This document shows positions 3,234-36,268 of a stretch of 64,000 nucleotides of DNA, piece after piece. The DNA lies in the NCBI GenBank assembly GCA_025602905.1, contig JAHLKI010000041.1, positions 115,683 to 179,682 on the forward strand. Direction: 5' to 3'. The notes under the pieces were generated by a model. That model was not told where the DNA came from. It searched no databases and was given only the letters and a program-made list of their open reading frames with translations. The DNA is from Phlyctochytrium arcticum. Lineage: Eukaryota > Chytridiomycota > Chytridiomycetes > Chytridiales > Chytridiaceae. The translations under genes and the position numbers were made by a program. How positions within the stretch are numbered: position 1 is the stretch's first letter; every line of letters begins with the position of its first letter.

Positions 3234-3294
3234 TGACACGGTGCATAGACCCGAATTCCCTCTTAGAGGGAATTCGGGTCTATGCACCGTGTCA
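3234..3294. repeat. Terminal 61-nt palindrome (left tip)
   Basis: Two perfect 30-bp arms (starting TGACACGGTGCATAGACC) around a single unpaired T at 3264. It can fold into a long hairpin at the extreme end of the element. Possible roles are integrase recognition, replication initiation or a hairpin telomere; the sequence does not decide among them. Confidence 0.9.
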
Positions 3295-3486
3295 GTGACT
3301 GGGTTCCTATATAGATTTGACCTGGTCAAGCGCTTAAGATGCCGCCCGAGCTAATAGTATATATACATAGTTATATGGTTACATAATACAGATCTATCCT
3401 ATTAATAGAACTTTGACCAGATCCTGACCAGATCCAAGATCGAGTCAAATCCGAGGGCAACCGCCCATCTTGCCTTGAATCTCACA

Positions 3487-3825
3487 CTAATCTATCTGTA
3501 TCACTTCTGACTCGATGACGTCATCCGCCGTCTCTATTATATCGATATTCCGAACCCACACTTCATTCGTCGTCAGATACAATTCTCTGACTTCCTCTGG
3601 CATATTCGTCGCGTCTACGCGGCGGGATGTCAAGATCTTGAACTTTAACTTCTTCAAAATTGTCCCTCGCTTGATTTGATGGCTTGTTATATTCCGCAGC
3701 TTCATTGTCTTCTTGATTGTCGCTAACAAGTCTGTATGTTCCTTTATCAGCTTCTGCGCTTTCTTAAACTCTTCCGATTGATCCAAGTCTATCAGACGTT
3801 CCATCTTCTTCTCCAGGTAATCCAT
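3487..3825 (-). CDS. TIR-encoded 112-aa protein, left copy
   Basis: Not recognised. A lysine-rich, predicted mostly helical N-terminal half starting MDYLEKKMERLIDLDQ is followed by a basic stretch (KRGTILKKLKFK, about residues 52-64) and an acidic C-terminal tail ending in EVIQID. No membrane segment or cysteine cluster. The gene lies wholly inside the TIR, so the element carries two copies transcribed toward the two tips; this copy has Ala where the right copy has Val (RVDATNMPEE versus RVDVTNMPEE). A TATA-like stretch (TTTATATACTCG, read on the minus strand) lies about 70 nt upstream. The basic patch and terminal location would fit a DNA-end or replication-associated protein, which is speculation. 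Confidence 0.75.
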   Translation of the reverse strand: MDYLEKKMERLIDLDQSEEFKKAQKLIKEHTDLLATIKKTMKLRNITSHQIKRGTILKKLKFKILTSRRVDATNMPEEVRELYLTTNEVWVRNIDIIETADDVIESEVIQID

Positions 3826-3996
3826 TGATGCTAACTTGATGCTATTTGGCGCTAACTTGATTCTAACTGTGGATATCTGAGGCAGGACCGTCGCTTTATA
3901 TACTCGTGATTGTATCGATACCTTTTCTTTCTATGGATCGGAAAGACTCTCTTGCTCCTTCACTGCCGCTTATTCGCCCCGAGGTCCCATGCTACA

Positions 3997-4026
3997 TGTC
4001 GCCACTTGTCGCTACTTGTCGCTACA
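3997..4026. repeat. Three 10-bp tandem repeats in left TIR
   Basis: Units TGTCGCCACT, TGTCGCTACT and TGTCGCTACA follow each other directly upstream of the TIR gene; the mirrored set is at 35476-35505. Iterated short units beside an inverted repeat suggest a protein-binding array (replication or promoter), by inference. Confidence 0.7.
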
Positions 4027-4051
4027 CTTTTAGCAAAAAGTAGGAAAAATA

Positions 4052-4093
4052 CCACAAACGTAATAAACGTTTAAGTGTGTTTTACGTTTGTGG
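4052..4093. repeat. Nested inverted repeat in left TIR
   Basis: Arms CCACAAACGTAA (4052-4063) and TTACGTTTGTGG (4082-4093) are perfect 12-bp inverses. Between them is the inner palindrome TAAACGTTTA (4064-4073). Mirrored at 35409-35450. Candidate replication origin or operator; no functional proof. Confidence 0.7.
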
Positions 4094-4332
4094 AAAAATC
4101 ACGACTTCTTCAAATTGCTGAATATGATGAAGTATGTGGAAAAGTGATTAGATGACCCTCACCGCAACAAAACGCAACGGGGAAAATCTTGGACATATGA
4201 CTCACACTCTTGGTCAGACAATACCATCTCTATTCTTTATTGATTCGGGGATGATTCTTTAGCTATTCGAACATTGCATTATTTGAAGCTTTTATATTAC
4301 AAAGTCTTTTTCGAAAATATTCAATTGGTCAT

Positions 4333-5583
4333 CTAGATTACATCAACCAAGTCTGAAACACTGAGGGTAACGTTCTCTTGGTATGTCAACAACAAGCGAC
4401 AGTTGCTACTAGGTTTGTTGTTGGGGTCGTGTTCTGTAGTGAGTTTGAATACTGCATCTGTACCAGTAAAGTTCAATGCAGCCGGAACACCTTCTTCTAG
4501 AGATTGGAAAGCCCAGCCTGCGCTAAAGTACTTGTTGTTATAATCAGCCAAACTAGGAAGTGACAATTCACCCATAGAGTAAAAGTCATTCTGCTGCAAT
4601 TGAGTGACCAATAGAGTCTGAGGATTCGTTAGTGAATTCTGGAAGCCTCTGCCTGTATTATTCGGAATAACAATACCACCGATATTCATCCACCACTGGC
4701 GCAAGCCCTTCGAAGAACTAATGGCGTTCTTGTCCTTGGAAAGATCTTGCATTTGGTCGTCGTCAATCCATGAGAAATCAATAGATCGTAAAGAGCGCAC
4801 ACCAGAAAAGTTTGTAGAGTAGATTTGTCGACTAGCACCGTTACAATTAATTTCAACTTGAGTCGTTCGGACGTAATCGTAATTGATTGCTTTGCCAGCA
4901 CTAATCGACTTCTCCACTTGGAATACGTATTCAGGAGGAGGAGTAACACATGGGACCAAGAATTCAACGTTTCTGAATATAACTTCATCAACTGTATCAT
5001 TCAAGTAAAACTGTTTGGGATCGACTATAGTCAAGTATATATCAATATTCTGTGAGGGGTGAGCCCATATATGGAGGGGTCGTTCGTCATCACAGTGGAA
5101 AAATCCTATCGGCATGTGACTAGTGTAAGATACAGTAGGTGATGATTCAAATATATCCGTTGCGCCATAGCCGTTCATACTTCGAATCGTTTTCTTCAAC
5201 GTTTCAGGAATATACTTGTAGTTGTGAGTTAGATAATGAGGATAGTTGGGAATTTCCTGAATAACCTTGTTACCAATTTGAACACGCACACTTTGAATAA
5301 GACCATCGAGCCCCAATTCGGTATTCACAATACTATTCCCTGAAACGGGAACACCGTTTTTCATGGCAGTTACGTCAAATGAAAGAAGCAACTTTTGCAA
5401 TATCAAGGATCGAGAAGAATCATTTAAGGTAATCTTGATAGGGGTAGTTGTTCGAGTTTTCGACGTAAAGACATCTTGGCCTAAAGGGTTAAAAAACAAC
5501 CAAGATTCACCACGAGGGTCAGAATAGGGCTTACTATAGCGATTCGAATTAATTAGCCAGTTGCGCGGAATATTTTCAGACAT
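4333..5583 (-). CDS. Double jelly-roll major capsid protein (MCP)
   Basis: Putative main capsid shell protein (416 aa) of a PLV-type virion. The protein is beta-rich with few charged helices. N-terminal strands include TPIKITLNDSSRSLILQKLL; a QSVRVQIGNKVIQEIPNYPHY segment (about residues 95-115) follows; the linker region has a PPPEYVFQVEKSI segment; and a second barrel carries FSGVRSLRSIDFSWIDDD. This order resembles double jelly-roll MCPs of Polinton-like viruses, and the length lies in their range. It sits at the start of a minus-strand block with coiled-coil proteins and the penton-like protein, the usual morphogenesis neighbourhood. The ATG at 5583 follows an AT-rich TATATA-containing gap of 28 nt. 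The assignment rests on pattern and context, not alignment; a structure prediction should show two stacked eight-stranded barrels. Confidence 0.82.
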   Translation of the reverse strand: MSENIPRNWLINSNRYSKPYSDPRGESWLFFNPLGQDVFTSKTRTTTPIKITLNDSSRSLILQKLLLSFDVTAMKNGVPVSGNSIVNTELGLDGLIQSVRVQIGNKVIQEIPNYPHYLTHNYKYIPETLKKTIRSMNGYGATDIFESSPTVSYTSHMPIGFFHCDDERPLHIWAHPSQNIDIYLTIVDPKQFYLNDTVDEVIFRNVEFLVPCVTPPPEYVFQVEKSISAGKAINYDYVRTTQVEINCNGASRQIYSTNFSGVRSLRSIDFSWIDDDQMQDLSKDKNAISSSKGLRQWWMNIGGIVIPNNTGRGFQNSLTNPQTLLVTQLQQNDFYSMGELSLPSLADYNNKYFSAGWAFQSLEEGVPAALNFTGTDAVFKLTTEHDPNNKPSSNCRLLLTYQENVTLSVSDLVDVI

Positions 5584-5611
5584 GGTTTACTTAATGAATA
5601 TATAAAAAAAA

Positions 5612-6094
5612 TCAATACCCGAATATTCCGCCAAAGTTTTCTTCTTCAACTACTTTTTTTTCAACTTGTTTAGTTTTTTCAACTTGTTGTTTCTTTTGGG
5701 CCTTTGGTTTGACTTGCGTATTCTTCTGTTCTCTCAATTGTTTCTTTTGTAACCTTTCGAGACGTTTCTGTTCTTTTTCTTGTCGTTTACGTTCTTCTAA
5801 TTGATTCACCAAGTTGTAGGCCTCTTCAATTTTCCTCTGATATTCCAATTGTTCTCTTTCTTCATCCCGTTGTTTCTGCATAGTATTCAATTGAAGCTTC
5901 CTCGACTCTTGCGCTTTGCGTAGAGCTTCCTTTTGCTTCTCAGACATCTGCCTCTTTTTCTTGGGTGCTTCTTCAATTACAGTAGCTGTTGGTTCTTCTT
6001 CTTGTTGTACTGCTTCCCGTACAGGTTCTTGTACAACATCTTGTACCGGACTAGTTTCTTGTGGTTCAAGTAAAGCGTCTTCTTCAGTATTCAT
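5612..6094 (-). CDS. Glu/Lys/Gln-rich coiled-coil protein
   Basis: 160 aa. The acidic N-terminal 45 residues (many Glu, Val, Gln) are followed by a basic patch APKKKRQMSEKQKEALRKA. A long charged helix, about residues 55-130, is dominated by E, K, Q and R and almost certainly forms a coiled coil. The C terminus is Lys-rich and ends in a glycine/aromatic tag NFGGIFGY. No enzyme motif. It lies 28 nt upstream of the capsid gene on the same strand and may be co-expressed. A scaffold, core or DNA-condensing virion role is possible but inferred from position and composition only. Confidence 0.75.
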   Translation of the reverse strand: MNTEEDALLEPQETSPVQDVVQEPVREAVQQEEEPTATVIEEAPKKKRQMSEKQKEALRKAQESRKLQLNTMQKQRDEEREQLEYQRKIEEAYNLVNQLEERKRQEKEQKRLERLQKKQLREQKNTQVKPKAQKKQQVEKTKQVEKKVVEEENFGGIFGY

Positions 6095-6120
6095 TTTATC
6101 ATGTACAAAACAAAAAAAAA

Positions 6121-6316: not shown

Positions 6317-7036
6317 TTATATTCTCACATCTTGGACGTCGTCGGCAAGGAGAAAGCGTACACTGAGAGGTGATTCTAGTGCCAATTCTTCGTTCGTCAT
6401 GCTATCTACAAGATGAAACTCTATTTTGCTAATAGTTTGATCCACAGTGAGCCACTCACTGTCGTTGGTAAAATTGATGACATCTCCGAAACTGTCTGGT
6501 ATTATTGTTGCTACTACACTGCTACCAATGTCATTGTAATCGGAAAGAAAACGAACTGAAGGTACGTTGATGTTGCTAGTAAGAAGTATGGGGTAAGAAC
6601 CACTGAGATTCACAGTATTCTTAAATGTGGCAGATTTGCCTAAAGGTGTCGCTGTGCGATTCGACATGCCACTGACACTGTACATCTTTGTTCCTTCTTT
6701 GCCAGGCAGAATACTGAAATCCTTATCAACACAAGTCAATGTAATGCGACGTGTAATTTGGTTGTAGGTTGCAGAATACGATTGGGAACCTGCAATAGTC
6801 ATGGCTGAGGCAATAGATTGTCCAAAGTTGGCAACGGTATAGTTCCCTGGTGGAACAGTTGCAACGATTGGATCGTCATTGCCGCTTTCTTTGAATACAA
6901 TGGTGTTGTTGGTTGAATTAATAAGATCGTAGTCTTGGATGAATGAGACACTGAGAATCTTGATGTAACTGACATTGCGACGACCTATCGGAAAGCTACG
7001 GCCTTTCAAGCTACAGAATGTCAACTCGTTGATCAT
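6317..7036 (-). CDS. Penton-like minor capsid protein
   Basis: 239 aa starting at the ATG at 7036 (MINELTFCSLKGRSFP); a longer open frame upstream overlaps the divergent ATPase gene and is not used. The protein is beta-rich. An N-terminal strand pair ends in TIVFKESG, then comes the signature-like ATVPPGNYTVANFGQSIASAM and the paired strands YSATYNQITRRITLTC. The C-terminal part has KIEFHLVDSMTNEELALE and a final strand SVRFLLADD. The PPGNYT/helix/YSATYN arrangement is what I associate with penton-like (single jelly-roll) minor capsid proteins of PLVs and Polintons. Location next to the packaging ATPase and MCP supports this. Confidence 0.8.
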   Translation of the reverse strand: MINELTFCSLKGRSFPIGRRNVSYIKILSVSFIQDYDLINSTNNTIVFKESGNDDPIVATVPPGNYTVANFGQSIASAMTIAGSQSYSATYNQITRRITLTCVDKDFSILPGKEGTKMYSVSGMSNRTATPLGKSATFKNTVNLSGSYPILLTSNINVPSVRFLSDYNDIGSSVVATIIPDSFGDVINFTNDSEWLTVDQTISKIEFHLVDSMTNEELALESPLSVRFLLADDVQDVRI

Positions 7037-7073
7037 CGTACTTGTTTCTTCTCTTATATAATAGAAAAGAAAC
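7037..7073. promoter_or_regulatory. Divergent promoter gap, penton-like / ATPase
   Basis: Only 37 nt separate the two divergent ATGs; the gap contains CTTATATAATAG, a TATA-like element usable in either direction. Confidence 0.5.
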
Positions 7074-7781
7074 ATGTATCGAGTGAAACCTATATACAAC
7101 AGTAAATCGGTAGCACCAGACAAAAGAGTACCCTTTCCCCTAGCATCTCCGGAGCTATGCTCGACGTTATGCGCGCCCAGAAAATCGGGCAAAACTAGTT
7201 ACGTGTGCGGAGTAATAAACGATGTCTATGCGCCAGTGGTTGACAAGGTGATTATCATGTCTGATACAGTAGAATACGATTTATGTATACAAGAATTGGC
7301 CAAAGTCACAAAGCATCAGAATATATTTTTTGCCGATGTAGTCTCTAATGAAAGTATCAAGAGTATTGTTGATTCGCAAATTGCAGGGGATTGTAAAGAC
7401 AAGATCCTATTATACATTGATGACGCGGGCGATTCGGCACGAAGTAAAGACTTGTCGCGTGAATTGGACAAACTCTTTACGAAGGGAAGACACTACAATA
7501 TCTCTATAATTGTGACATGTCAAAGCATCACCAGTCAGCTCTCTCGAAAACAAAAAAATTGCACAACTGAGTGGATCATATTCCGCAATAACAGAAAAGA
7601 TATGGAAACTCTGGCCGAGACTTTGGTGACAGCTTTTGCTGACAAGAAGGAAATATTAGACTATTTGGTTCAATGTACGACAAAGCCGTATTCGTTTTGT
7701 TATATAAATTTAGCTAATGATAATGCAAAGGAAATCTACACATACTGTGAAGACAATGTATTCAAATATTACTTTACTTGA
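7074..7781 (+). CDS. FtsK/HerA-type genome-packaging ATPase
   Basis: Motor that drives viral DNA into the capsid. 235 aa. Walker A is APRKSGKTSY (residues about 34-43), preceded by the typical strand TLC; Walker B is KILLYIDDAG (about 109-118), with the acidic pair DD. A sensor-like IIVTCQS segment follows, about residues 144-150. The length and motif spacing match the A32-like packaging ATPases of PLVs, virophages and Polintons. It starts 37 nt from the divergent penton-like gene. Its 3' end overlaps the convergent amphipathic-protein gene by 8 nt. Intact, with no missing catalytic residue. Confidence 0.9.
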   Translation: MYRVKPIYNSKSVAPDKRVPFPLASPELCSTLCAPRKSGKTSYVCGVINDVYAPVVDKVIIMSDTVEYDLCIQELAKVTKHQNIFFADVVSNESIKSIVDSQIAGDCKDKILLYIDDAGDSARSKDLSRELDKLFTKGRHYNISIIVTCQSITSQLSRKQKNCTTEWIIFRNNRKDMETLAETLVTAFADKKEILDYLVQCTTKPYSFCYINLANDNAKEIYTYCEDNVFKYYFT

Positions 7782-8136: not shown

Positions 8137-9639
8137 ATGGTATATCGGACCAATCTATTAGAATTCGATGGTTCACTAAGAACACCAGAACCTAATCCTC
8201 AGAGTAACCTGAAGACAGTAGGTGTCGATGTAAATCACGGAAGACCTCGTGTAGTCGGCACATTTAACAAAAGGTTGAGACGTATGAATACGCGAAACGT
8301 TTCTCATATTGATCACCATGTTCAAGATGTCTCTGCTACAGATTTAAAGACAAGTGATTCTCGGTATGCCACTAAAGCATATAAGGACTTTGAAGAATAT
8401 AAAAATCTCGAACTGATGTATCGAGAGAAACAGCAATTCATTGATTCAATCACGCCGCAAAAGTCAGTCAGTGGAACAAATGCGTCACGTTTACCCATTC
8501 CGTCGCAGAATGGAGTGATCTTTCATTACCCCCCAGAAGTCACTGCGAATACTGGAATGATGTTTTCCAAGCCGCAAAATACACCAGAACGTGAGAGACC
8601 ATTACAGGGGCAAACTGTATCCCGTCCTGTCATTGAAGTGTCTGATACAGTTGTGCGAAAAGATGCAGAAACTGGTCTTGGGTTTCTCAGTGAACCATCG
8701 ACTGTAGTTAATCCGTTGCCAATTAGACGGGTACCTGAAGAAATTGAAATCAGTATTCCAGGTGGTTTCCCAAGAGTACCAAGTCCCGAACCTTCGCCTC
8801 GAAATGTGACTCCAGTTGAGACATATGTTCCTCAGAGTTTCCCTCCTTCCGACATTGTTGCATCAGGTCGAGCTAATGTTCAAGAAGTTCTTGATGACAA
8901 TTTTGTCAATAATAATGTTTCAGAATATAACATGCGAGGTACAATTAGACGAGGGAGAACAACAACAAACCGTACTAATCCATACAACAAAAAGGACAAG
9001 GTACGTCTTGCGAATGGACAATTGTCGAATCCTGTAGTAACCGATTCAGAGATTCAAAACAATGTTGTCACTGATCCGGCGTCAGGTTCTGCTGTATTCG
9101 TTCCTCAAACTGAAGGTGTAGAAACCCGTCAAAGGCGTCGACCTTCGACACCGATCCCTCGCCCGTCTCCAATACCTGAAGCAAATGTTGGTCGTGAGAT
9201 TCAATACGATTATTTGGCAGCAGATGCAACGACAAATGTCGCTCAAGTTCCAGAACCGCCGCAACCTGTTAACGTTTCTGTCATTCGTCCACTAAGTGCG
9301 TTGCCCACTCAATTGACTGATTCGGCGATCATCAATCCGAAAAGAGCACAACGACAAGAAGTAGATTTGGAACAGGCTGCACCTAAGCGACGAAAGAAAA
9401 ATCCTCGACTTGAGCCTCCAGGATTCGTTAAGTTGCCCAAAGCATCGGCTACCTCATATAAGGATTTCGAGAAACCTTTTGAATATCCAAAGAAACCGGC
9501 TGTAACTGGTACCGCAATCTTGAATCCACCAAGGGCTGTAACTGGTACCGCCATTCTAAACCCTGGCAGAGCGAATAGGTTACGTGATGAAGAACGAGAA
9601 TCTTTGGCGCCTCCGGCAAAGCGTCGTAAGAGAAAATAA
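8137..9639 (+). CDS. Long proline/asparagine-rich disordered protein with C-terminal NLS
   Basis: 500 aa, not recognised. Mostly low in hydrophobic runs and rich in P, N, R, S, T and V, so probably disordered. YKDFE occurs twice (KAYKDFEEYKN near residue 85, SYKDFEKPFEY near residue 445). VTGTAILNP occurs twice close together near residues 455-475. The tail PPAKRRKRK is a strong candidate nuclear localisation signal, with a second basic cluster PKRRKKNPR near residue 415. The repeated short linear motifs and its place in the structural block suggest a capsid-internal cement or core protein with several docking sites, which is inference. Stop at 9639 is only 14 nt before the integrase ATG. Confidence 0.75.
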   Translation: MVYRTNLLEFDGSLRTPEPNPQSNLKTVGVDVNHGRPRVVGTFNKRLRRMNTRNVSHIDHHVQDVSATDLKTSDSRYATKAYKDFEEYKNLELMYREKQQFIDSITPQKSVSGTNASRLPIPSQNGVIFHYPPEVTANTGMMFSKPQNTPERERPLQGQTVSRPVIEVSDTVVRKDAETGLGFLSEPSTVVNPLPIRRVPEEIEISIPGGFPRVPSPEPSPRNVTPVETYVPQSFPPSDIVASGRANVQEVLDDNFVNNNVSEYNMRGTIRRGRTTTNRTNPYNKKDKVRLANGQLSNPVVTDSEIQNNVVTDPASGSAVFVPQTEGVETRQRRRPSTPIPRPSPIPEANVGREIQYDYLAADATTNVAQVPEPPQPVNVSVIRPLSALPTQLTDSAIINPKRAQRQEVDLEQAAPKRRKKNPRLEPPGFVKLPKASATSYKDFEKPFEYPKKPAVTGTAILNPPRAVTGTAILNPGRANRLRDEERESLAPPAKRRKRK

Positions 9640-9653: not shown

Positions 9654-10912
9654 ATGGAAGAAGTACCGGTCATTAAATCGAGGAGTCTACAATATTCGAA
9701 AGAGCTATCAGATCTAGATGCCCGTCAATTGAAAGAGTTTTACTATAAGGACCTCCATATGTATGGTAGGGATAGACTCTATTATGCATATAAACAGAGG
9801 TATCCTGATTCTAAAGTGTCTCAGAGAGCGGTGTTAAAATGGCTCAAGAAACAAGAAATCTATCAAAGAAGTAGTCGCCCTATCGGAAGTAAGGGTAGTA
9901 TTCGCCCTATACTCTCATCCAAACCAGGGACTTTCCAAATTGATACTGTGAATATGAGGTCACATTCATATAATGGGTTTAATTATATTGTAAATTTAAT
10001 CGACATCTTCAGTAAAAAACTGCTCTGAAACGGAATACACAAGAAGAGGTCAAAACATTTCTAGAAGATCTATTAGAAGACGGTGTCGAGATAGTATATG
10101 TGAACAGCGACCAAGGTCAGGAATTCAAACATCTGGTTCAAGGCTTAGCTGAAGAATACGGTATTAAATGGACATTTTCAAAACCTCACACACCGACTTC
10201 AAATTCACATGTAGAAAGGGTCAATGGCTCACTTAAAAATATTCTGTTCAAATCGATTCAATTGGGTGATCCAAATTGGCCAGCAGCATTACCAAAGATT
10301 GTGGAAAATTTAAATACTAGCGCTATTCATTTTGGTAGTGGCAATATGACCACTCAACAGATATTAGATAATCCTGAAGCAGCTTATAGGACGCAATTGT
10401 TGCAAAGAACGAAAGGAAGGGGAAACAAATTACTACCCGACCTTTCGGTGGGAAACAAGGTGAGAAAACTAACAACTATCTCTAAACTGGAGAAAAGGAG
10501 TAAAAAATTGTACTTTTCAAAGGAGATTTATACGATATCAAAAATAGTTAAAACGACACGGTCTAGTGCTTATCAAGATTCTTACAAGATAAAAAACTCG
10601 TTAGATAAAGAAATGTACGGGCTGTACCCTGCCTATATGCTAAGAAAAATCGATGATGTAGAAAATGTATTGCCTGAACCTGCAAATGTGAATACTGAAA
10701 CTGAAGAAGAAGAAGATGAAGAAGATGATGGTATTGAGAAATACGAAGTAGAAGCTATTTTGGACAAGAAAATTACACGACGAAAGATTTTTTACTTAAT
10801 TCTATGGAAGGGGTACGATATAGAAGATTCTACTTGGGAACCTAGGAGTAACCTAATAGAAGACGGATTTCAAGATGAGATAGAAGACTATGAAAGAGAA
10901 CACTCTAATTAG
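9654..10912 (+). CDS. RVE-type integrase with C-terminal chromodomain (frameshifted)
   Basis: Retrovirus/Polinton-type DDE integrase. The N-terminal part (residues about 20-75) is helical with an HTH-like segment. The catalytic core has Asp in GTFQIDTVNM, Asp in VNSDQGQEF and Glu in SNSHVERVNG, with 34 residues between the last two (family D35E). An acidic linker leads to a chromodomain (YEVEAILDKK...YLILWKGYDIEDSTWEPRSNL). The frame breaks after FSKK at 10013-10018: six A residues where seven would keep frame, so translation would stop at 10026-10028 in the first frame. The downstream frame is fully conserved, suggesting a recent indel or sequence error. Its stop overlaps the convergent tyrosine recombinase stop. 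The 5-bp duplication around the element fits this enzyme. Confidence 0.88.
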
Positions 10913-12381
10913 TTCGTTGCCTGCTCGCGTCTACGTTTGCATTTTAGTGCAACTTTCTCTATTGTCAAGTCTGGAGGCAATCGTTTACTGGCCATGATGT
11001 ATTTTTGTACGGTTCGAAAAGGTTTGATTTCCATTGCTTCGTATTCGTCCATGAGTGCAAATGCTATCTCTTTTTCTTCATCGGACCACTTGCGTGTCCA
11101 CTTGCGTTTATTAGAACTGCTGCTACTGCTGGTGGCCGTATTCTGTTCCACAGCTTCAACTTGTTCGACTTGTTCCATGTCTTCTTCAATTCGAAACGTA
11201 TAGTTCAGCGCTTGTAAATTGATACTATGTCCCATTTCATATGCCATTTTCTTTCTCTCTGGGAGATATTTCAAATTACCCAAGGCAGTTTGATATGACA
11301 CATACAATTTTCTCATATCAGTGGAAGTCAATGGTTTACCCACTACACGCTGCATGATTGATGCGACCTTTTCACTCCATCTGTTCTCCCATCCAGTGAA
11401 TAAATTCTGATCCTCGTCTGTAGCAAACCTGGTGCGATATGCCTCAATCATTTTTCGCTCGTGTCGGGTTACATGAAAAACGTATTCGCCATAAGCGTTT
11501 ACGGTCTTGTAATCATTTAGAACAATGTCAAAATTTTCATCATCATAATGGTTTGGCGCGTCTTTGTTTAGTGACATCGTCGAGAAGTCTTTACTACGTC
11601 TTGGCGGGCGGTTTGTATAGAACGAAACAATGATTGCAGCACGCAGCTCATCTTTGGTGCAATTGTCAAGGTCAAGATTTTGCAAGTGTTCGGCAGACCT
11701 TTCCTTAACATAGACCCATGGGATGTACTTGTTTCTCATAAACGCTTCACTGGCTCGTTGTTCTTGTCGAATTAAATTGATTTGTTGGTTATAATATGTT
11801 TGATGGGAAGAAAACATTTCCTTTAATCCTTCATAGTTTTCCACCCGCTGTTTCTCTTCATTGTTTAATATTCGAAACAGAACAGCAAATCCTTTGCATG
11901 CATTAGCCAGTAGTTGCATCTTTTCTTTCACTTCAGTTTCATTCTCTAGAATTTCCTCCAATTTAGCATCTAGTAAATTTTTGATATAATGTTTCTTGAG
12001 AATATAATCAGTCGTTTCTAATTGAAACAAAGTCATGCCATTTCTGGCGTCTAATTTGCGCTTGGTTAAAGTATTTCTTTGTATGGAAATGTTTGGGTCT
12101 TCTTTGGCTCGTTCAAAGACCATGTCAACAAACTCGGGCGTAAACTCTAAAGGTTCAATTTCCCTAATCTCTTGTGCCATTTCCATGTGCACTGGTTGTT
12201 CAACTGATTCGGGAAGTTGAGGCAAAAGATTAACGATATATTCGGCAAACTCGGGGGAAACATTGTTTGCAAGGAGAAAATATCCTAGAGTCTGCTTCGT
12301 TAAATTCTTGTCCATGATATGCGCAACACCATTAGGTGTCATGTACTGGGAGAATACAAAGTTTCTCATATAGTCGTCCAT
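10909..12381 (-). CDS. Tyrosine recombinase with C-terminal Myb/SANT-like tail
   Basis: 490 aa. The catalytic domain carries the family set in order: Arg in TNRPPRRSKDF (R261 or R262), Lys in VLNDYKTVNAYG (K292), Arg in TDMRKLYVSYQ (R357), His in MGHS (H385) and the nucleophile candidate Tyr in LQALNY (Y394). The PPRR...D and NDYKT...YG patterns are those of viral/PLV tyrosine recombinases. Residues about 1-220 would form the core-binding and arm domain. After an Glu/Val/Ser-rich linker, KRKWTRKWSDEEKEIAFAL begins a Myb-like helical segment (about 425-488). It could excise or circularise the element, or resolve replication products; the integration footprint does not require it. Intact frame, unlike the neighbouring RVE integrase. 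Confidence 0.82.
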   Translation of the reverse strand: MDDYMRNFVFSQYMTPNGVAHIMDKNLTKQTLGYFLLANNVSPEFAEYIVNLLPQLPESVEQPVHMEMAQEIREIEPLEFTPEFVDMVFERAKEDPNISIQRNTLTKRKLDARNGMTLFQLETTDYILKKHYIKNLLDAKLEEILENETEVKEKMQLLANACKGFAVLFRILNNEEKQRVENYEGLKEMFSSHQTYYNQQINLIRQEQRASEAFMRNKYIPWVYVKERSAEHLQNLDLDNCTKDELRAAIIVSFYTNRPPRRSKDFSTMSLNKDAPNHYDDENFDIVLNDYKTVNAYGEYVFHVTRHERKMIEAYRTRFATDEDQNLFTGWENRWSEKVASIMQRVVGKPLTSTDMRKLYVSYQTALGNLKYLPERKKMAYEMGHSINLQALNYTFRIEEDMEQVEQVEAVEQNTATSSSSSSNKRKWTRKWSDEEKEIAFALMDEYEAMEIKPFRTVQKYIMASKRLPPDLTIEKVALKCKRRREQATN

Positions 12382-13663: not shown

Positions 13664-13799
13664 TATATTCTACCTAGCGTTCTAGCCCAAATAATACAAA
13701 CTTTTTTACAGAAATGAAAAATAAAAATTTTTAAAAATAAATTTGAATTGGTTTTCAATATTAGAACTACTTTTTTGAAAAATTGGGCTAGGAATTTAG
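13664..13799 (+). repeat. 136-bp intergenic direct repeat, copy A
   Basis: Matches 17426-17561 with a single visible difference (TTGG versus TTAG). It is AT-rich inside, with 9-bp inverted ends CTAGCCCAA (13682-13690) and TTGGGCTAG (13783-13791). Both copies lie just beyond the 3' ends of genes and together bracket the replication genes. Confidence 0.9.
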
Positions 13800-19541: not shown

Positions 19542-19564
19542 CATATATACATGCGTGCACTACG

Positions 19565-28294: not shown

Positions 28295-29200
28295 ACAATC
28301 TTGCCCCGGATTCGCGGGATTCTTGCTCTGACTCTTGTTTTCCGGAGCTGGACAGCTTGGCGCGCAACACAGACTGCGAAAAAGGTGGGTGTGCGTTGGC
28401 TAGCTTAGGTCTGTTTCTTGCCTGCGGTTCTGCTGGGGCTGTTGCCCGCTGCTTCATCTTTGGTTCCTGTGGCATCTCACGGGGCACGTAAAAGTGCTCG
28501 CTGCGGCCTACGGCGCTTGGAAGCTGATAGTGACGGTATCTCCGGGCACCGCAGGAACTGTCCCGCGATCTCATTCAAAGATGTGGACGTATGAGTGGGA
28601 TGTGTACTTTATCTAGGAACGGACGCCGGGTATCTATCGAGGGGCTTCGTTGAAGGACCTGCTGGGGCCTGGTGTCTTTTCGGGAAGTGCCTGGCCCACC
28701 GACGCTGAATGAGGGAGCAGGATGGGTATTCGCATCTCTCGTCCTGCTGGAGCAGCTGCTTGCTGGTTCGCCGATGAAACTGGATGGTTGCTGTGTTTAC
28801 GGGGACGAGAGGTGCTTAGAGTTGGAGTGAGTTGGGGTCGCTTGGTCGTACCTTCTTCTGAGCGCACAGCGGTATCTATCGGGGCACGTTATGCCTGCTG
28901 GGGCTTCTGGACGTCGGGAGGCAATACTTTGCGGCGTGGCCGATGAACATTTGACTTTGACTGAACACATTCCGCCTGCTCGCTGATTGCTAACTCCCTC
29001 AAAGCTTCTTTTTTTTCACTTCTTTTCGCCGTCTTCTATCTTCCGATCGACCGACAACCGAGACCATCAATCGGCCAAGTACCATCGAATCTGAGAAACC
29101 ATGGATGTCAAATTTGTCGTTGATTCGCTATTGCCTGTTAACGCAATTGTGTTAAGAGACAGAGCTTTTATTTCATTTGATTTCTTATAAGTAAATAGTG

Positions 29201-32200
29201 ATGTCAGGTATTAACTCGCGCAATGCCTCGGGTATTCGCACCCTTGACAATACAAATATTCAAAACAGCTTCATAAGCGGCGAATTGAAAGGAGACGAAT
29301 ATTCCAGTATCGATGTCGCCACTGTTAAGAATAAACATGGAATACTTAAAATAAACTCTTTATCCTCAGAAGCGCCAATTGAAACCACTCTGACACAGGG
29401 TAACGCACACGTCTCTCTTGCTTACGATGATAGTCGTCTCGTTCTAGATTCCGAAGGAAATCTTTCAACCATTGAGGCAGACGTTCGTCTACCTCTTCAG
29501 TATTCAAGCGACGACCATCAGGTGTCTCTTCAGTATGACAATGATTCATTATTTATTAACGATGAAAATCAATTAGCAGCCAAGAAACAGGATCCACCTG
29601 AATTGAACAGTCCGCTCTTCTACAATGACGACGATGAAATTGAATTAAGGTATGCATCTCATATGGAAGACGCAGAATCTATACTTGACGGTGATTTGAA
29701 TCTATTTGCAAAAGGGTTGAGTCTCAAAATCTCTGATCCGTTCTATTACAATGTTCTAAATAGTCACAAATTGTCACTCAAGATTGATGATGATACCATG
29801 GATATAGACGGTGGAAAGTTGAAGGCTCTTATTCCCGACAAGTTGGTATTCGAATACCCATTAGATGAAATCGACGGTCAAGTCTCCTTACGAATTGATG
29901 AAGATACACTTGAAGTAGATTATAACAAATTAAAAGCAAAAACACAGGATGTTTCCAAGAGTCTCAAGGGAGCCGGCGCCATATCAGTATATCGAGATAT
30001 TACCGAATCCATTGACGGATCACTTGTCAAACTCGAGGTGGACCATGAAAATTTTCAGCAGACGGGTAACAAGCTGGCGTTTAGAAGTCAGGGATTAGGG
30101 CAGATTCCTTATGACAACGGGATTGCAGGTTTGAATAGAACTAGTGACTTTACGTATTCAGAGACACTGAATGAACTTAGTGTGGGACATGTGAATCTAT
30201 CACCAAATAGCAATCCAAGTGACTATGAGGCAACAACTGCCGAATACGTGAAGGGTGTGTACCAGGGGAGTGGAGCAGTTGTGATTCGAGACCAAATAGT
30301 TGAATTGAATACTGATGCGAGTTTAGCGGTTGACACGAATATGAATCTTTCAGTAAACCCAAGTCCCTTGGTAGACAACTCGTCTATACGAGTCGATTCT
30401 CAAGGTAAGATTTCATCCGGGCTCTCTTTCAGCAATGGTCTTTATCAGAATTCCTCACATGAGGTCAGTCTGGATCTTACAGTATCAGGTGGGCTTCAAA
30501 TGGATAGCACCAAGACTCACATTGAAGAAAATTTGTCAGCGTCTAATGGAGTCAAGCGTATAGGAAATACGTTCCAAGGCGACTACCAAGCAGGAAATAA
30601 TATTCAGATCACTGGCAACACCATCTCCTGTTCCTATGAATACGAGGCACCTGATGAATCACCATATGTTGGTGGTAATGGGATTACGGTAGCGGGAAAG
30701 ACAATCTCTAATTCATTTTCCTTGACGGCAGGTAGTGGCGTGATATTGGTTGGTTCCCCTGGCATCGGTTATACAATTTCAACCATAGACACTTTCAAAA
30801 CAGAAAGAACAGCTGAAGATCCCATTCAAGAGCAAACAGGAGAAGGTGCGAATCAAGTCCTGAAATCGGGAGGAGGCGAGGTCGTTTCAGTCAGTGGAGG
30901 TTTGAGCGGTATTGTAGGGCCATTAAATGGTTTATTTGGCGCGGGTGGTAGTGTAATAGGGTCAGCTAGTTCGGCTATTTCTGCCATAGGCTCTGGAATG
31001 CTAGGCGGTGCCCTTACCGGCCTTGGTGCCGGATTCATCACTATTCTAGGGAGAGAAAGGAAACGCGAGGAGGATGTGAATGGAAATCCCATATTGGATT
31101 CAAACGGCAATATTCAAATGAAGCCAGGTAGTAATGTCATAACCGTGACTCTACCTGATTCAAACGGCTGCGATGTCACAAGGTTGCTCTTCGATACGCC
31201 GCCTCAATGTGGATGGTTAGGTATTGCTACTGAATACCCACAACAAGCGGTGAATTTAGACATGTTGCGCCAGTATGACTCCCAAATAATTCAGCCTAGT
31301 ACCGTGAGCCTCGTGAGTCAATTGATTGATCCAATTATACAAAATCTAGAAATTGTAAATTCCGTAATTGAAGGTGTTGAAACCGATATTGCAACCAATT
31401 ATCAACCAAAGATCACTAGTACCAACAAAATTCCATATTCGAATATTTCAACACCGCCTGATTTGTCTGTTTTTCTAAATCGGAATATAGACTTGGGAAA
31501 CATCAACTCTTCAATCGCCACAAAACAGAATATAATATCAGCATCGAATCGTCTCGATTACGGTTTTTTGTCGAATATTCCGAATCTCGCGTTGAAACAG
31601 GATCTCATTACAAGTTCTGCAAAATTACCATATAGTCTTGTGAGTGGTACACCAGATTTGACACCTTATGCCTTGAATACATCATTAACAAGCGGACTTG
31701 CATTGAAACAAAATGTAATAGATTCAAATAACAAACTACCATATGCCAACGTATCTGGCGCACCTGATTTGAGTGTATATGCTTTGAATATATCATTAAC
31801 AAGCGGACTTGCTTCAAAAGTGTCGCAATCTGTTTATGATACGCGACAAATTGCCATTGATGCTTCAATTGCAACAAAGGTTTCCCAGAGCATTTACGAT
31901 ACACGACAAACTGCTATTGATTCAGCCATTACTTTGAAGCAAAATCTCATCAAAGATGCAATTTCCCTAATTGGTGTTGATAATACTACAACTACTATTC
32001 TTACGGATAATTTCACAAGCACTCCGACAGGTACGTTGTCCGGGAATGCAACTTATGACACTACAAACAAATATGTAATTCTTCAACAAAACAACCAAAC
32101 GTATTCCAATGGGAACATTGCCTATACAATCCCGAATCTAGGAAGATACTGGACGGTTCAATGTGATCTGCTATATTCTTCCTTTCGGCAAGATGAGGGT

Positions 32201-34228
32201 ATTACAATAAACTGTGGTGGTTATGCAGCATCGTTTTCCGGATATTTTAACTACACTCGCTTGCATACTCCAGACGGAACATACAAAGAAGTCGCTGCAT
32301 CATTGCCTCGAGACGTTTTTGCAACGGTAAGGATGAAGGTCGTTTACGATACCGCATTTCTCTATGTCAATAATATTCTGGTAACGAGTTGGACAAATGC
32401 TTCGAGCAATGTCCCTCTATCCACGAATATAACACTTGTGATTTATGGTCAGAGCGGAGGATTTGGAGCAGCGAAATATTTAGACAATTTGTCTCTTGTT
32501 CAAGACAGTAATGCCACAGAAAGTATTAAGTTTGCTCCATTGAATGGGAAAGTTACGAGTCAAATTTCTACAATAGATGATGGAACTTATGGCTCGTCAA
32601 TGGTTATTTCTGCTTCAACAGGGTCGAGCGGAACATTACAAGAATTGATGCGATTGGGAACAAGTGCTGTAACGGTCAGCAAAAAACTTTATGCCACTGA
32701 TGATATATTTACAAAGACTTTAAAGGTTGCAACAGAATCTTTCGTAAATACATCAATCAGTGCAATCCCCCTCTCAAATTACACATTGACATCGACCTAC
32801 AATACGAGACAAACTGCGATAGACAACCGCTTTACACCCATTGAGACACGCATAGGTCAGTTGAAAGCATTATCAAATCTTGACACAATCGACTTGTCGA
32901 CTTCACTAGTCACCGGTATTCTCCCAATTAGTAAAATTGATACAAGTACACTTCAACCTTTGATCACCTCGGGAAATGCAGCATCATTCAAGACAACTTT
33001 GGGATTATCGAGTACGGCATCTAGCGGTAATATTGATTGGGGGAATGTCACAGGTAAGCCAGTATTCGGTTCGTTGTCCTTGAAGAATTCTATCGACCTT
33101 TCAACAACCGAGGTAACCGGTATTCTCCCAATTACTAAAATTGATACAAGTACACTTCAACCTTTAATAGCAGATTATAACGCTGATGATATAAAATTTA
33201 CTTTAGATATTCAATGGAGCACATTACCTGGTAAACCTGTATTTGGCACATTGGCGAACAAGTCAATGATAGACCTTGCCTCAAGTGATGTCAGTGGTAT
33301 TCTACCCTTTGCAAAACTAGATACTACCATGCTCACTACGAGTTCATATCTCTATGTCAAGGGACATTCCAGTCCTTTCACAACTTCTATAACTACACCT
33401 GGTCTCTTCATGGTGTATGACACATCACAAGGTTTCGGTGTTATCCAATCAACCATTAAGAGTAACGGTACTTTTCTTCCATTAAGGATTGAAGCATCAA
33501 TTGTCAATATACCGACCACAACAGATGCAACTGCAATCAATACTGGGGCATTCCAAATTGCAGGTGGTGCTAGTATTGCCAAAAAACTGTATGTCGGTAC
33601 TGAATTGACGGTAGGAACGAATATCAATCTTTCTTCATCAGCTAGTAGTTCCTTGTATTGGGGTGCTTCAACTGCTCTAATCGGGAGAGCAGCAACGAAT
33701 ACACATTTTTGTTCCAATTCACTTGCGGGTGATATAGTATTACGCTCTAATGGTTCTGGAACATCAACAGGCAATATTCGGTTTGCTACTGGCGGTCTCG
33801 CATCGTCGCTCGATATTCTTCAAAATGGAAATGTAAATGTTGCGAATAGTCTCACTGTGGGAAATTCACTTACTGTAAATGGGGTCAATCTGAAATTGCC
33901 TGTTGCAACTACAGTATTCAGTGATAGCTCATATTCATCTGATCTTGTTAACTTTACTACTACAAGAGGGACCCAGGTTTGGACTGGGTGTATATCACCC
34001 TTTGCAACGACAACACAACAGAACATCACATTTGCCATCAAAATCGATAACATATTGGTAAAATCATTCGTGGTCTTTTTCAACCTAGCCGATGTTCATA
34101 TACCAATCCCTTTCCAATTTATTTCTCGAAATTTAACACCCGGGAACCATACATTTCAACTCTATGCTGCCGGTAACGTTTCCATGGATGTCAATTCGCG
34201 AATTGATGTTCAATTTCTAGAATTTTAG
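29201..34228 (+). CDS. Giant fiber / attachment protein (1,675 aa)
   Basis: Probable virion surface fiber. Start at the ATG at 29201 (MSGINSRNASGIRTLDNTN). Residues about 60-300 consist of short beta repeats of the form hydrophobic-D-x-D-x-x-L-x-h-x-x-x-x-L (VSLQYDNDSLFINDENQLA, SLKIDDDTMDIDGGKLKAL, VSLRIDEDTLEVDYNKLKA), reminiscent of adenovirus fiber-shaft repeats. A Gly/Ala/Ser hydrophobic segment lies at about 564-620 (GAGGSVIGSASSAISAIGSG). Repeats with LALKQN...LPY and VYDTRQ(T)AID fill about 720-910. About 930-1105 looks like a LamG/ConA-type lectin sandwich (RYWTVQCDLLYSS, RDVFATVRMKVVYD, FLYVNNILVTSW). Repeats with TGILPISKIDTSTLQPLI follow, then a C-terminal beta domain. The first 270 codons are amplified upstream. 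Confidence 0.8.
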   Translation: MSGINSRNASGIRTLDNTNIQNSFISGELKGDEYSSIDVATVKNKHGILKINSLSSEAPIETTLTQGNAHVSLAYDDSRLVLDSEGNLSTIEADVRLPLQYSSDDHQVSLQYDNDSLFINDENQLAAKKQDPPELNSPLFYNDDDEIELRYASHMEDAESILDGDLNLFAKGLSLKISDPFYYNVLNSHKLSLKIDDDTMDIDGGKLKALIPDKLVFEYPLDEIDGQVSLRIDEDTLEVDYNKLKAKTQDVSKSLKGAGAISVYRDITESIDGSLVKLEVDHENFQQTGNKLAFRSQGLGQIPYDNGIAGLNRTSDFTYSETLNELSVGHVNLSPNSNPSDYEATTAEYVKGVYQGSGAVVIRDQIVELNTDASLAVDTNMNLSVNPSPLVDNSSIRVDSQGKISSGLSFSNGLYQNSSHEVSLDLTVSGGLQMDSTKTHIEENLSASNGVKRIGNTFQGDYQAGNNIQITGNTISCSYEYEAPDESPYVGGNGITVAGKTISNSFSLTAGSGVILVGSPGIGYTISTIDTFKTERTAEDPIQEQTGEGANQVLKSGGGEVVSVSGGLSGIVGPLNGLFGAGGSVIGSASSAISAIGSGMLGGALTGLGAGFITILGRERKREEDVNGNPILDSNGNIQMKPGSNVITVTLPDSNGCDVTRLLFDTPPQCGWLGIATEYPQQAVNLDMLRQYDSQIIQPSTVSLVSQLIDPIIQNLEIVNSVIEGVETDIATNYQPKITSTNKIPYSNISTPPDLSVFLNRNIDLGNINSSIATKQNIISASNRLDYGFLSNIPNLALKQDLITSSAKLPYSLVSGTPDLTPYALNTSLTSGLALKQNVIDSNNKLPYANVSGAPDLSVYALNISLTSGLASKVSQSVYDTRQIAIDASIATKVSQSIYDTRQTAIDSAITLKQNLIKDAISLIGVDNTTTTILTDNFTSTPTGTLSGNATYDTTNKYVILQQNNQTYSNGNIAYTIPNLGRYWTVQCDLLYSSFRQDEGITINCGGYAASFSGYFNYTRLHTPDGTYKEVAASLPRDVFATVRMKVVYDTAFLYVNNILVTSWTNASSNVPLSTNITLVIYGQSGGFGAAKYLDNLSLVQDSNATESIKFAPLNGKVTSQISTIDDGTYGSSMVISASTGSSGTLQELMRLGTSAVTVSKKLYATDDIFTKTLKVATESFVNTSISAIPLSNYTLTSTYNTRQTAIDNRFTPIETRIGQLKALSNLDTIDLSTSLVTGILPISKIDTSTLQPLITSGNAASFKTTLGLSSTASSGNIDWGNVTGKPVFGSLSLKNSIDLSTTEVTGILPITKIDTSTLQPLIADYNADDIKFTLDIQWSTLPGKPVFGTLANKSMIDLASSDVSGILPFAKLDTTMLTTSSYLYVKGHSSPFTTSITTPGLFMVYDTSQGFGVIQSTIKSNGTFLPLRIEASIVNIPTTTDATAINTGAFQIAGGASIAKKLYVGTELTVGTNINLSSSASSSLYWGASTALIGRAATNTHFCSNSLAGDIVLRSNGSGTSTGNIRFATGGLASSLDILQNGNVNVANSLTVGNSLTVNGVNLKLPVATTVFSDSSYSSDLVNFTTTRGTQVWTGCISPFATTTQQNITFAIKIDNILVKSFVVFFNLADVHIPIPFQFISRNLTPGNHTFQLYAAGNVSMDVNSRIDVQFLEF

Positions 34229-34554
34229 AATATCAATTCGAGCAACTCAATTGAATTGTCTTTGTCGCAACCCAACGCAACACATTTTTCACAAATATTC
34301 AAGTATCCTGATTCCAGGAATTCACGTCTAAGCTGCTTATTCTTACGGGGGGTCAGTACGCTTGATATTGAAATAATCTTTTCGAATAAATTTCGATTAA
34401 GTACATTAATTGGCACGAATATGAAAAAATGTTCGCCTTTGCCTTTCAAGTTGTATATAATCCTAAACAACTGATCTTCATTAAAAATGACCATTCGACA
34501 AACAAGAATCTCCACGCCGGATTCTGAAACGATTCTAAATTTATTTTTTCTCAT
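34225..34554 (-). CDS. Unknown 109-aa protein
   Basis: Not recognised. It begins with a basic strand (MRKNKFRIVSESGVEILVCR) and has an alternating hydrophobic middle (IIYNLKGKGEHFFIFVPINV). A C-terminal Cys pair sits in NICEKCVALGCDKD. It overlaps the fiber stop by 4 nt on the opposite strand, as other convergent genes of the element do, and lies 45 nt from the receiver-domain gene on the same strand. Possibly a small partner of that gene; no evidence beyond adjacency. Confidence 0.6.
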   Translation of the reverse strand: MRKNKFRIVSESGVEILVCRMVIFNEDQLFRIIYNLKGKGEHFFIFVPINVLNRNLFEKIISISSVLTPRKNKQLRREFLESGYLNICEKCVALGCDKDNSIELLELIF

Positions 34555-34599
34555 GACCAGAATACCTTAAAGAAAGAAAAAAGCTTATTTGTTTTGCGT

Positions 34600-34995
34600 C
34601 TATGATTCTGGTTTTAGAATATCGATAATATCTTTTTTTGTGATGGGCTTGGTGTAGAACAGGTCCGCTCCGGCAGCTAATGCTTTGTGCTTCAATGTTG
34701 CATCAGAAGAGAATGCTATAATTTTCACTCCTTCAGAGACCATGTTATCCTTTTCTGCCTGGCGAATCCACGCTATCAGGTTCAGCCCTTCCTGTTTATA
34801 CGTGAAGGTTGGATCCTGAATATGTTCATTGAGTAACATATCAGTAAAGACATAAGTTATATCATCGTAATTATCATTGAATACGTCGAAAAGCATCATG
34901 GTAGATGATAGCAAGACTTGTTCTTGAGTAATGCTATTAATCATTTTCTTCATAAGTTTCCTAGTGAAATTATTGTCGTCGACTACGATGATCAT
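34600..34995 (-). CDS. Stand-alone response-regulator receiver (REC) domain protein
   Basis: 131 aa, the size of one receiver domain and no more. All phosphorelay landmarks are present: acidic pair D6-D7 in MIIVVDDNN, phospho-acceptor Asp D52 in YVFTDMLL, switch Ser (S96/S97) in IIAFSSDA, and Lys-Pro K116-P117 in YTKPI. The alternation of hydrophobic strands and helices fits the CheY-like fold. Fungi use histidine-to-aspartate phosphorelays in stress and development; a viral receiver domain could siphon phosphate from a host HPt protein or sense it. That role is inference. No kinase or output domain is encoded nearby. It lies next to the right TIR. Confidence 0.88.
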   Translation of the reverse strand: MIIVVDDNNFTRKLMKKMINSITQEQVLLSSTMMLFDVFNDNYDDITYVFTDMLLNEHIQDPTFTYKQEGLNLIAWIRQAEKDNMVSEGVKIIAFSSDATLKHKALAAGADLFYTKPITKKDIIDILKPES

Positions 34996-35230
34996 TTACA
35001 TGGCGTGTTTTACTATTAGAGGCGAAAAGAAACGTGGACAGTCATGTACAGAAAAAAATAATATTGGAAAGTAAAGAATGTTGCAACTGGACACTAATAA
35101 TATCTCACAGTGTATCTCAAAGAAAAAAGAGTTCTTTGACTTATAACTACATGATTGTTCGAGTCGACGAGTTGAAAGAATACATAATATTCTGTTCTTG
35201 TTCTTCTTCCAGTCAAAGGAGAGGAATAGA
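34996..35230. other. Gap between REC gene and right TIR
   Basis: AT-rich, 235 nt. A 69-codon frame crosses into the TIR but has no recognisable feature and is not called. It should hold the promoter of the REC gene. Confidence 0.4.
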
Positions 35231-35408
35231 TTCGAATAGCTAAAGAATCATCCCCGAATCAATAAAGAATAGAGATGGTATTGTCTGACCAAGAGTGTGA
35301 GTCATATGTCCAAGATTTTCCCCGTTGCGTTTTGTTGCGGTGAGGGTCATCTAATCACTTTTCCACATACTTCATCATATTCAGCAATTTGAAGAAGTCG
35401 TGATTTTT

Positions 35409-35450
35409 CCACAAACGTAAAACACACTTAAACGTTTATTACGTTTGTGG
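35409..35450. repeat. Nested inverted repeat in right TIR
   Basis: Mirror of 4052-4093, with 12-bp arms and an inner TAAACGTTTA palindrome. Confidence 0.7.
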
Positions 35451-35475
35451 TATTTTTCCTACTTTTTGCTAAAAG

Positions 35476-35505
35476 TGTAGCGACAAGTAGCGACAAGTGG
35501 CGACA
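35476..35505. repeat. Three 10-bp tandem repeats in right TIR
   Basis: Mirror of 3997-4026. Confidence 0.7.
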
Positions 35506-35676
35506 TGTAGCATGGGACCTCGGGGCGAATAAGCGGCAGTGAAGGAGCAAGAGAGTCTTTCCGATCCATAGAAAGAAAAGGTATCGATACAATCACGAGT
35601 ATATAAAGCGACGGTCCTGCCTCAGATATCCACAGTTAGAATCAAGTTAGCGCCAAATAGCATCAAGTTAGCATCA

Positions 35677-36015
35677 ATGGATTACCTGGAGAAGAAGATG
35701 GAACGTCTGATAGACTTGGATCAATCGGAAGAGTTTAAGAAAGCGCAGAAGCTGATAAAGGAACATACAGACTTGTTAGCGACAATCAAGAAGACAATGA
35801 AGCTGCGGAATATAACAAGCCATCAAATCAAGCGAGGGACAATTTTGAAGAAGTTAAAGTTCAAGATCTTGACATCCCGCCGCGTAGACGTGACGAATAT
35901 GCCAGAGGAAGTCAGAGAATTGTATCTGACGACGAATGAAGTGTGGGTTCGGAATATCGATATAATAGAGACGGCGGATGACGTCATCGAGTCAGAAGTG
36001 ATACAGATAGATTAG
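35677..36015 (+). CDS. TIR-encoded 112-aa protein, right copy
   Basis: Identical to the left TIR product except Val for Ala in RVDVTNMPEE. The only coding change between the two TIRs is therefore conservative, and both copies remain open. A TATA-like ACGAGTATATAAAGCG lies about 70-80 nt upstream of the ATG (35596-35611), the same as in the left copy. Function unknown; see the left copy for the sequence features. Confidence 0.75.
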   Translation: MDYLEKKMERLIDLDQSEEFKKAQKLIKEHTDLLATIKKTMKLRNITSHQIKRGTILKKLKFKILTSRRVDVTNMPEEVRELYLTTNEVWVRNIDIIETADDVIESEVIQID

Positions 36016-36207
36016 TGTGAGATTCAAGGCAAGATGGGCGGTTGCCCTCGGATTTGACTCGATCTTGGATCTGGTCAGGATCTGGTCAAAGTTCTATTAA
36101 TAGGATAGATCTGTATTATGTAACCATATAACTATGTATATATACTATTAGCTCGGGCGGCATCTTAAGCGCTTGACCAGGTCAAATCTATATAGGAACC
36201 CAGTCAC

Positions 36208-36268
36208 TGACACGGTGCATAGACCCGAATTCCCTCTTAGAGGGAATTCGGGTCTATGCACCGTGTCA
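36208..36268. repeat. Terminal 61-nt palindrome (right tip)
   Basis: 30-bp arms identical to the left tip. The central unpaired base is T at 36238 on the plus strand, also T on the plus strand at the left tip (3264), so the centre is inverted relative to the rest of the TIR. Confidence 0.9.

Follow-up and report, generated by a model that had tools for sequence, protein, structure and literature searches.

The integrated element and its ends

We analyzed a 64-kb window of the genome of the chytrid Phlyctochytrium arcticum (31.48 Mb, 91 contigs; the window is C41:115683-179682, where C41, C18, C15 and similar labels denote contigs of this genome), in which positions 3234-36268 are occupied by an integrated Polinton-like virus (PLV), referred to here as the C41 element. 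An initial annotation of the window had proposed a PLV-type virus integrated in a fungal genome, and this identification was borne out by the fold of the capsid protein, a Pox_A32 ATPase, a PrimPol/D5 protein, 5-bp target duplications and the occurrence of relatives of the major capsid protein (MCP) in other chytrids. What is notable about the element is its palindromic, flipping ends and the mosaicism established before integration, not its combination of genes; the terminal palindromes, the copy number, the mosaicism and a tandem array are all additions to what had been annotated.

The element is bounded by TG...CA ends with the target-site duplication GACAT on either side (3229..3233 and 36269..36273), and its terminal inverted repeats (TIRs) are equal in length (1,038 bp; 3234..4271 and 35231..36268), so that the exact ends described in the initial annotation were recovered. 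The two arms were given as 100% complementary by the repeat search, and direct reading of the sequence revealed that they mismatch at a single base, in the middle of the tip palindrome. This palindrome makes up the outermost 61 nt of both ends: the left one (3234..3294) is mismatch-free outside its central base and has the inward loop TTA, while the right one (36208..36268) has the inward loop TAA, opposite to the left end. The predicted fold of each tip consists of 29 pairs closed by a 3-nt loop (z -15.7 compared to 200 shuffles). Open reading frames (ORFs) for MULE-type transposases flank the insertion on either side (PF10551, E 5.9e-6, slightly below the cut-off, and 7.4e-7).

Gene content

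The left side of the element holds a capsid, packaging and integration block (MCP, 160-aa protein, 252-aa protein, ATPase, RVE integrase and a tyrosine-recombinase-like (YR-like) protein), and the right side a replication and fibre block (143-aa and 205-aa proteins, primase-helicase, methylase, 292-aa protein, fibre and REC protein). The Pfam scan took in 20 ORFs, with smaller overlapping ORFs outside its scope. Matches in Pfam, PHROGs and NCBIfam back the ATPase, the primase-helicase, the chromodomain/rve region, the REC protein and the methylase, with the fibre below the cut-off; together with the double jelly roll (DJR) capsid fold they uphold the earlier assignment of a virion, replication and integration gene set, in which the tyrosine recombinase is weakly supported by its fold.

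The MCP (416 aa; 4333..5583, minus strand) has a Capsid_N-like match below the Pfam cut-off (E 5.7e-4, 19.9 bits, cut-off 24). Its AlphaFold2 model (pLDDT 83.8) was matched by Foldseek to Vp54 of Paramecium bursaria chlorella virus 1 (PBCV-1; E 4.2e-17, TM about 0.6) as well as to further DJR capsids in BFVD. The protein is thus predicted to fold as a double jelly roll, in agreement with the jelly roll expected in the initial annotation, and this modelled DJR capsid provides the element with a PLV hallmark. The A32/FtsK-type packaging ATPase that characterizes PLVs (Preplasmiviricota) was found at 7074..7781 (plus strand; Pox_A32 E 7.8e-10). Between these two genes lie a charged 160-aa protein (5612..6094, minus), a similar stretch of which precedes the MCP in P. 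arcticum P0004 (the fusion was judged by eye), and a 252-aa candidate minor capsid protein (6317..7075, minus) assigned by position. The latter was taken to be the '239-aa' capsid candidate of the initial annotation; its best PDB sequence match, a lytic polysaccharide monooxygenase at E 0.21, is not meaningful, and PDB sequence searches with the MCP, the minor capsid candidate, the fibre and the YR-like protein gave nothing useful. A 112-aa protein is encoded within the TIR (3487..3825, minus), and a 500-aa protein has no assignment (8137..9639, plus).

The RVE integrase with a chromodomain (9654..10912, plus) is supported by a chromodomain match together with weak rve pieces, and its reading frame is broken in the C41 copy by a frameshift. 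The C17 copy is broken too, at a different point, and the frame is open in C18, C26, C15, C1:1308 and C23; the C18 integrase displays a DD34E arrangement with D97, D156 and E191. A programmed frameshift or intron was considered, as tblastn showed the two halves in unchanged order and about equally far apart, and was rejected because the copies except C17 are open across the break point. The description of the element as complete and still active may therefore hold for the family, but not for the C41 copy. The adjacent 490-aa YR-like protein (10909..12381, minus) carries the motif R262, K292, R357, H385 and Y394, whose residues are invariant across seven sequences (some of them nearly identical) from both capsid lineages. 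Its predicted fold is of low confidence, and the top VIA rows were filled by tyrosine recombinases, which weakly supports a tyrosine-recombinase-like identity.

The replication block begins with the 143-aa protein (12503..12934, minus), also the first gene in the segment common to C41 and C15, followed by a cysteine-rich 205-aa protein without assignment (13866..14483, minus). The primase-polymerase/D5 superfamily 3 helicase (14862..17318, plus; Prim-Pol E 2.7e-15, D5_N 2.1e-7) also matches C962R of African swine fever virus (E 1.3e-7). It is flanked by a 138-bp direct repeat (13662-13799 and 17424-17561) with cross-matches in C18, C15, C26 and C23, and these repeats are possible recombination points. 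The phage-type, Dam-like DNA methyltransferase (17674..18840, plus) was recognized through phrog_111 (E 4.1e-8), with TIGR01712 reaching merely E 0.03 and Pfam giving no match.

A tandem array of four 2,617-bp units follows (19542..30012), in which the unit comprises the 292-aa gene, without a family match, and the 5' part of the fibre gene. Unit 1 differs by one base from units 2-4, which are identical to each other, and 3 bp (CAT) are common at the junction. The unit is single in C18 and C15, and unit 1 of C41 equals these single copies. Tandem amplification thus accounts for 7.9 kb of the C41 element, which without the extra units would measure about 25.2 kb, the size of C18; the length of 33 kb given in the initial annotation is correct as a span, but inflated by the four-fold array. 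The arrangement is reminiscent of the gene accordions of poxviruses. The fibre protein itself (1,675 aa; 29201..34228, plus) may be adenovirus-like, judging from an Av_adeno_fibre match below the cut-off (E 1.9e-4, 21.7 bits, cut-off 22.7). It is followed by a 109-aa protein without assignment (34225..34554, minus) and by a 131-aa response-regulator receiver (REC) protein (34600..34995, minus; Response_reg E 1.1e-7), to our knowledge an unusual gene in a small virus, with relatives in C18, C26, C23, C15 and C16. Among the 20 ORFs scanned, no match was found to PolB (at E <= 1), to an Ulp1-type protease or to an HUH nickase (Rep/NS1), although many ORFs match nothing and a divergent nickase is possible, and no chitinase was seen.

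Copy number and relatives

The C41 element is one of many copies of its family in the P. arcticum genome, where the MCP yielded 58 match pieces, 30 of them near full length and 26 of these 30 without an internal stop. Beyond this species, the named MCP matches belong to Spizellomyces, Powellomyces and Gaertneriomyces at 38-44% identity, values that stand for pairwise matches and not for a tree. SPPG_02195 of Spizellomyces punctatus is 43-44% identical over the whole length and is probably the MCP of the integrated S. punctatus PLV already published by Bellas and Sommaruga in 2021 (PMC7805220). Scans of IMG/VR with the MCP and the ATPase found no relatives. Fungi were not covered by an extensive survey of the endogenous viruses of unicellular eukaryotes (PMC10120064).

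Pairs of MCP copies in opposite orientation, approximately 16-21 kb apart, were observed at C1:1325439/1341265, C40:8384/29668 and C4:889540/909451. The scores are equal within the C1 and C40 pairs, which face outward, and the C4 pair faces inward. At both sides of the C1 pair, approximately 3 kb including the MCP match the left end of C41.

Palindromic tips across the genome

In order to locate further tips, the whole P. arcticum genome was scanned with a pattern that fixes only GTGCATA...TATGCACYGNNNCA; as this sets seven complementary bases per side, only the inner bases are informative. The pattern occurs at 45 forward sites (reversed control: 0), of which 44 are palindromic when judged across their 23-41 unspecified bases. 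Of the 706 pair positions in the inner stems of these 44 sites, 15 are mismatched, 11 of which directly adjoin the loop as the innermost pair; the inner stem is mismatch-free at 31 of the 44 sites, and about 20 different stem sequences occur. When 43 of the palindromic tips were re-read with their flanks (C4:361613 was left out), they measured 51-69 nt, and all except two were mismatch-free outside the loop. The same pattern found 26 matches in the viral contigs of IMG/VR, none palindromic, the most symmetric being mismatched at 62% of its stem positions. Since the stems differ between copies and yet stay paired, both arms must change together. The sole non-palindromic match in the genome (C36:185260-185318) is possibly a decayed tip or a chance occurrence, and the slightly imperfect palindrome at C4:361613-361667 lies inside the element at C4:348968-373844, perhaps as a nested insertion.

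Some loop centres, TGGAG for example, lack self-complementarity and hence have a direction. Among the 12 elements with two tips, the left and right loops are opposite in five (C41, C18, C26, C1:1308 and C3), the same in two (C23 and C25) and unequal in their centres in one (C6), the remaining four being uninformative. A fixed inverted repeat would be expected to give 'equal' loops every time, and the five opposite pairs are read as flip and flop forms. In addition, C23 and C45 have the same stem, but at the capsid-side end their 5-nt loops face opposite ways. Flip and flop terminal palindromes of the parvovirus type are thus present in the family, with few independent sites that have multi-base loops.

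Integration and minimal ends

Perfect 5-bp duplications surround all 12 elements that could be paired by two palindromic tips: GACAT (C41 and also C15), GTCAG (C18), GTAAC (C26), GTTAC (C23), TGCCG (C1:1308 and C3, with common flanks), CCCTG (C40), CCGTT (C4), GAGAG (C25), AACGT (C6) and AGCTC (C2). As C2 was paired partly by the duplication criterion, leaving it out and counting C1:1308 and C3 once gives 10 of 10. The elements at C1:1308 and C3:1361 are almost identical at their tips and lie between the same flanking sequences (TCGTGCCG / TGCCGCTC), either through a segmental duplication or through use of the same target within a repeat. The TG...CA ends and 5-bp duplications are what a retroviral-type (RVE) integrase leaves, and an RVE integrase accompanied by target duplications is also the arrangement found in Polintons/Mavericks.

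No partner was identified for 19 of the 44 palindromes, and one more stands alone: at C8:569203-569263 a single 61-bp palindrome lies between two copies of AGCTG, resembling a solo long terminal repeat. The C25 element measures 1,747 bp and encodes a protein resembling the 112-aa TIR protein (a likeness judged by eye). In an ungapped comparison, its two ends are alike over the palindrome but no longer beyond it, with 20 mismatches accumulated by base 100, which suggests, at the level of sequence, that the palindrome is the end required by the enzyme. The solo tip and the 1.7-kb derivative point to a minimal mobile end.

Mosaicism and age

Identity to C41 was profiled in 400-bp windows over 3.2-19.5 and 27.4-36.3 kb, with the tandem array left out. 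C18 is 99-100% identical in all windows from 9.6 kb on, with patches of 86-98% further left; a comparison of C41 and C18 over about 18.6 kb gave 13 mismatches and two gaps. In C15, identity reaches 99-100% between about 12.8 and 33.0 kb, with many windows at 100%, and elsewhere there is either no match or 72-96%. The left side of C26 is mostly 93-100% identical, but drops to 76-83% over the integrase. C26 and C23 have nearly equal identities over 12.4-17.6 kb (each compared with C41, not mutually), and their fibre shafts are 58.6% and 71.6% identical to that of C41, respectively, across roughly the first 775 residues. Compared with the C41 MCP, those of C15 and C23 reach 51.9% and 50.7% identity. 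The C15 fibre has a C41-type shaft (97.9% identity to residue 1378) and a different distal part of approximately 300 aa, the tip being 94-98% identical to the tips of C23 and C26, compared to 37% over 92 aa for the C41 tip.

In C18 and C2 the palindrome at one end differs from that at the other while an intact duplication encloses both, which indicates that these recombinants formed before integration. The ends of C18 are about 89% and 99.5% identical to those of C41, and as ends can already differ at insertion, TIR identity is a poor clock. The recent integration that the initial annotation had deduced from near-identical TIRs is supported by the identity of C41 to C18 and C15, although the TIRs themselves are weak evidence of it. 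By these comparisons, the elements are mosaics of recent origin, assembled from capsid, replication and fibre-tip segments, and the P. arcticum genome preserves, through integration, a natural archive of exchanged segments (capsid, replication/shaft and fibre tip).

Copying of the genome ends

We consider it probable that the P. arcticum family uses hairpin-templated end replication. Outside the host chromosome, the genome would be linear, with terminal palindromes folding into hairpins; the tips would be copied through the hairpin, each arm serving as template for the other, which would yield perfect palindromes with flip and flop loops and would remove the need for the protein-primed PolB of Polintons. 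The RVE integrase would insert the duplex with extended ends, the hairpin may be nicked or resolved by the YR-like protein or by the integrase itself, and co-replicating genomes would recombine their capsid, replication/shaft and fibre-tip segments ahead of integration. Paired inverted MCP copies, as copy-back forms, would be expected from such replication. Some end regions weigh against this mechanism and lowered our confidence in it slightly: four of 16 short end regions extrapolated from TIR matches have no palindrome, and no tip motif occurs at the right end of either the C1:1324 or the C17:452 element in the sequence examined. One palindrome-less region (L051) had been misplaced, the C3 tip lying 2.6 kb away, and the others may be truncated.

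Alternatively, the palindrome could serve only as a symmetric site bound by the RVE integrase or by some other protein, with selection preserving its symmetry and the ends being copied otherwise, through priming by an unrecognized protein or through circularization. This would agree with the outermost 14 nt (TGNNRCRGTGCATA), which are alike at both borders of the palindrome as in an integrase site, and with C25, where the palindrome alone seems to suffice as an end. A binding site would not, however, require an inner stem that varies among copies while staying paired, and the 5-nt loops found in both orientations on the same stem (C23 vs. C45) speak against it as well, making this explanation unlikely. 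An artefact, in which fold-back reads made the palindromes and mis-assembly the mosaics, has to be considered since fold-back artefacts occur in long reads and the genome contains both a tandem array and inverted-duplicate copies. It is nevertheless very improbable, as fold-back would neither halt at TG...CA with an outer 5-bp duplication in every paired element nor produce one and the same motif at 44 sites spread over many contigs.

A form of the hairpin mechanism in which a telomere resolvase generates closed-hairpin telomeres, with the 490-aa YR-like protein cutting and sealing the junctions, appears doubtful. The palindromes resemble the 56-bp N15 site in length, and the five invariant residues of the YR-like protein in both capsid lineages would suit such an enzyme. 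Conversely, asymmetric loops of 3-6 nt are atypical for the perfect centre of a resolvase site, the Pfam family ResT-TelK_cat (PF16684) has no match in the genome, RVE integration of closed hairpins needs an opening step, and hhalign to N15 TelN gave a probability of 1.4% with a thin alignment. The fold comparison of the YR-like protein itself is too weak to discount such an enzyme. Rather unlikely, too, is the further proposal that this lineage replaced protein-primed replication by hairpin telomeres, with the ends primed or closed by palindromes that fold back, and that its own integrase is both the hairpin-resolving nickase and the inserting enzyme. The presumed terminal recognition motif of the integrase stands at both borders of every palindrome, facing opposite ways, and if the integrase did act as nickase, such ends would be mobile on their own, as the 1.75-kb and solo-palindrome elements.

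Comparison with known systems

The initial annotation had considered the gene combination new, and this novelty turned out to be modest, the exact combination not having been searched for: the text of PMC4642659 describes PLVs that carry Dam-family methylases and PLVs that carry tyrosine recombinases, and that of PMC12220804 describes PLVs with RVE or tyrosine integrases. Endogenous PLVs of cryptophytes and other hosts likewise show genome-wide expansion, TIRs, RVE or tyrosine integrases and target duplications, as stated in the latter source (PMC12220804). The closest comparison, the S. punctatus PLV group, shares the chytrid host, the integrated state and an MCP of 43-44% identity; the main text of that report mentions a single element, in contrast to the multi-copy family of P. 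arcticum, and gives a chitinase in 52% of the corresponding metagenomic group (PMC7805220). The words 'palindrom' and 'hairpin' are absent from the main texts of PMC7805220, PMC12220804, PMC4642659 and PMC12721341 (supplements and subscription papers lie outside this scope), 'hairpin' occurs once in PMC11071308, in a reference on a Neurospora plasmid, and 'palindrom' does not occur in PMC10120064. Closed-hairpin telomeres as in phage N15 have been proposed for phaeoviruses, as the text of PMC13236599 puts it.

The DJR capsid, A32 ATPase, RVE integrase, TIRs and short target duplications liken the C41 element to Polintons/Mavericks, from which it differs in having a PrimPol-D5 helicase and palindromic tips, with PolB and the Ulp1-type protease unmatched among the scanned ORFs. 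Polintons use a protein-primed PolB, and parvoviruses and poxviruses have self-complementary hairpin ends with flip/flop loops. Self-complementary palindromes at genome ends or linearization sites are thus shared by the P. arcticum elements with parvoviruses and poxviruses and with N15 and phaeoviruses, but no related replication gene was seen in the C41 element, and the integrated duplex keeps a whole palindrome at each end inside the 5-bp duplication. Compensating palindromes with flipped loops make the way in which PLVs lacking PolB copy the tips of a linear genome directly testable in a chytrid, and they connect PLVs with the strategy of hairpin ends known from parvoviruses and poxviruses.

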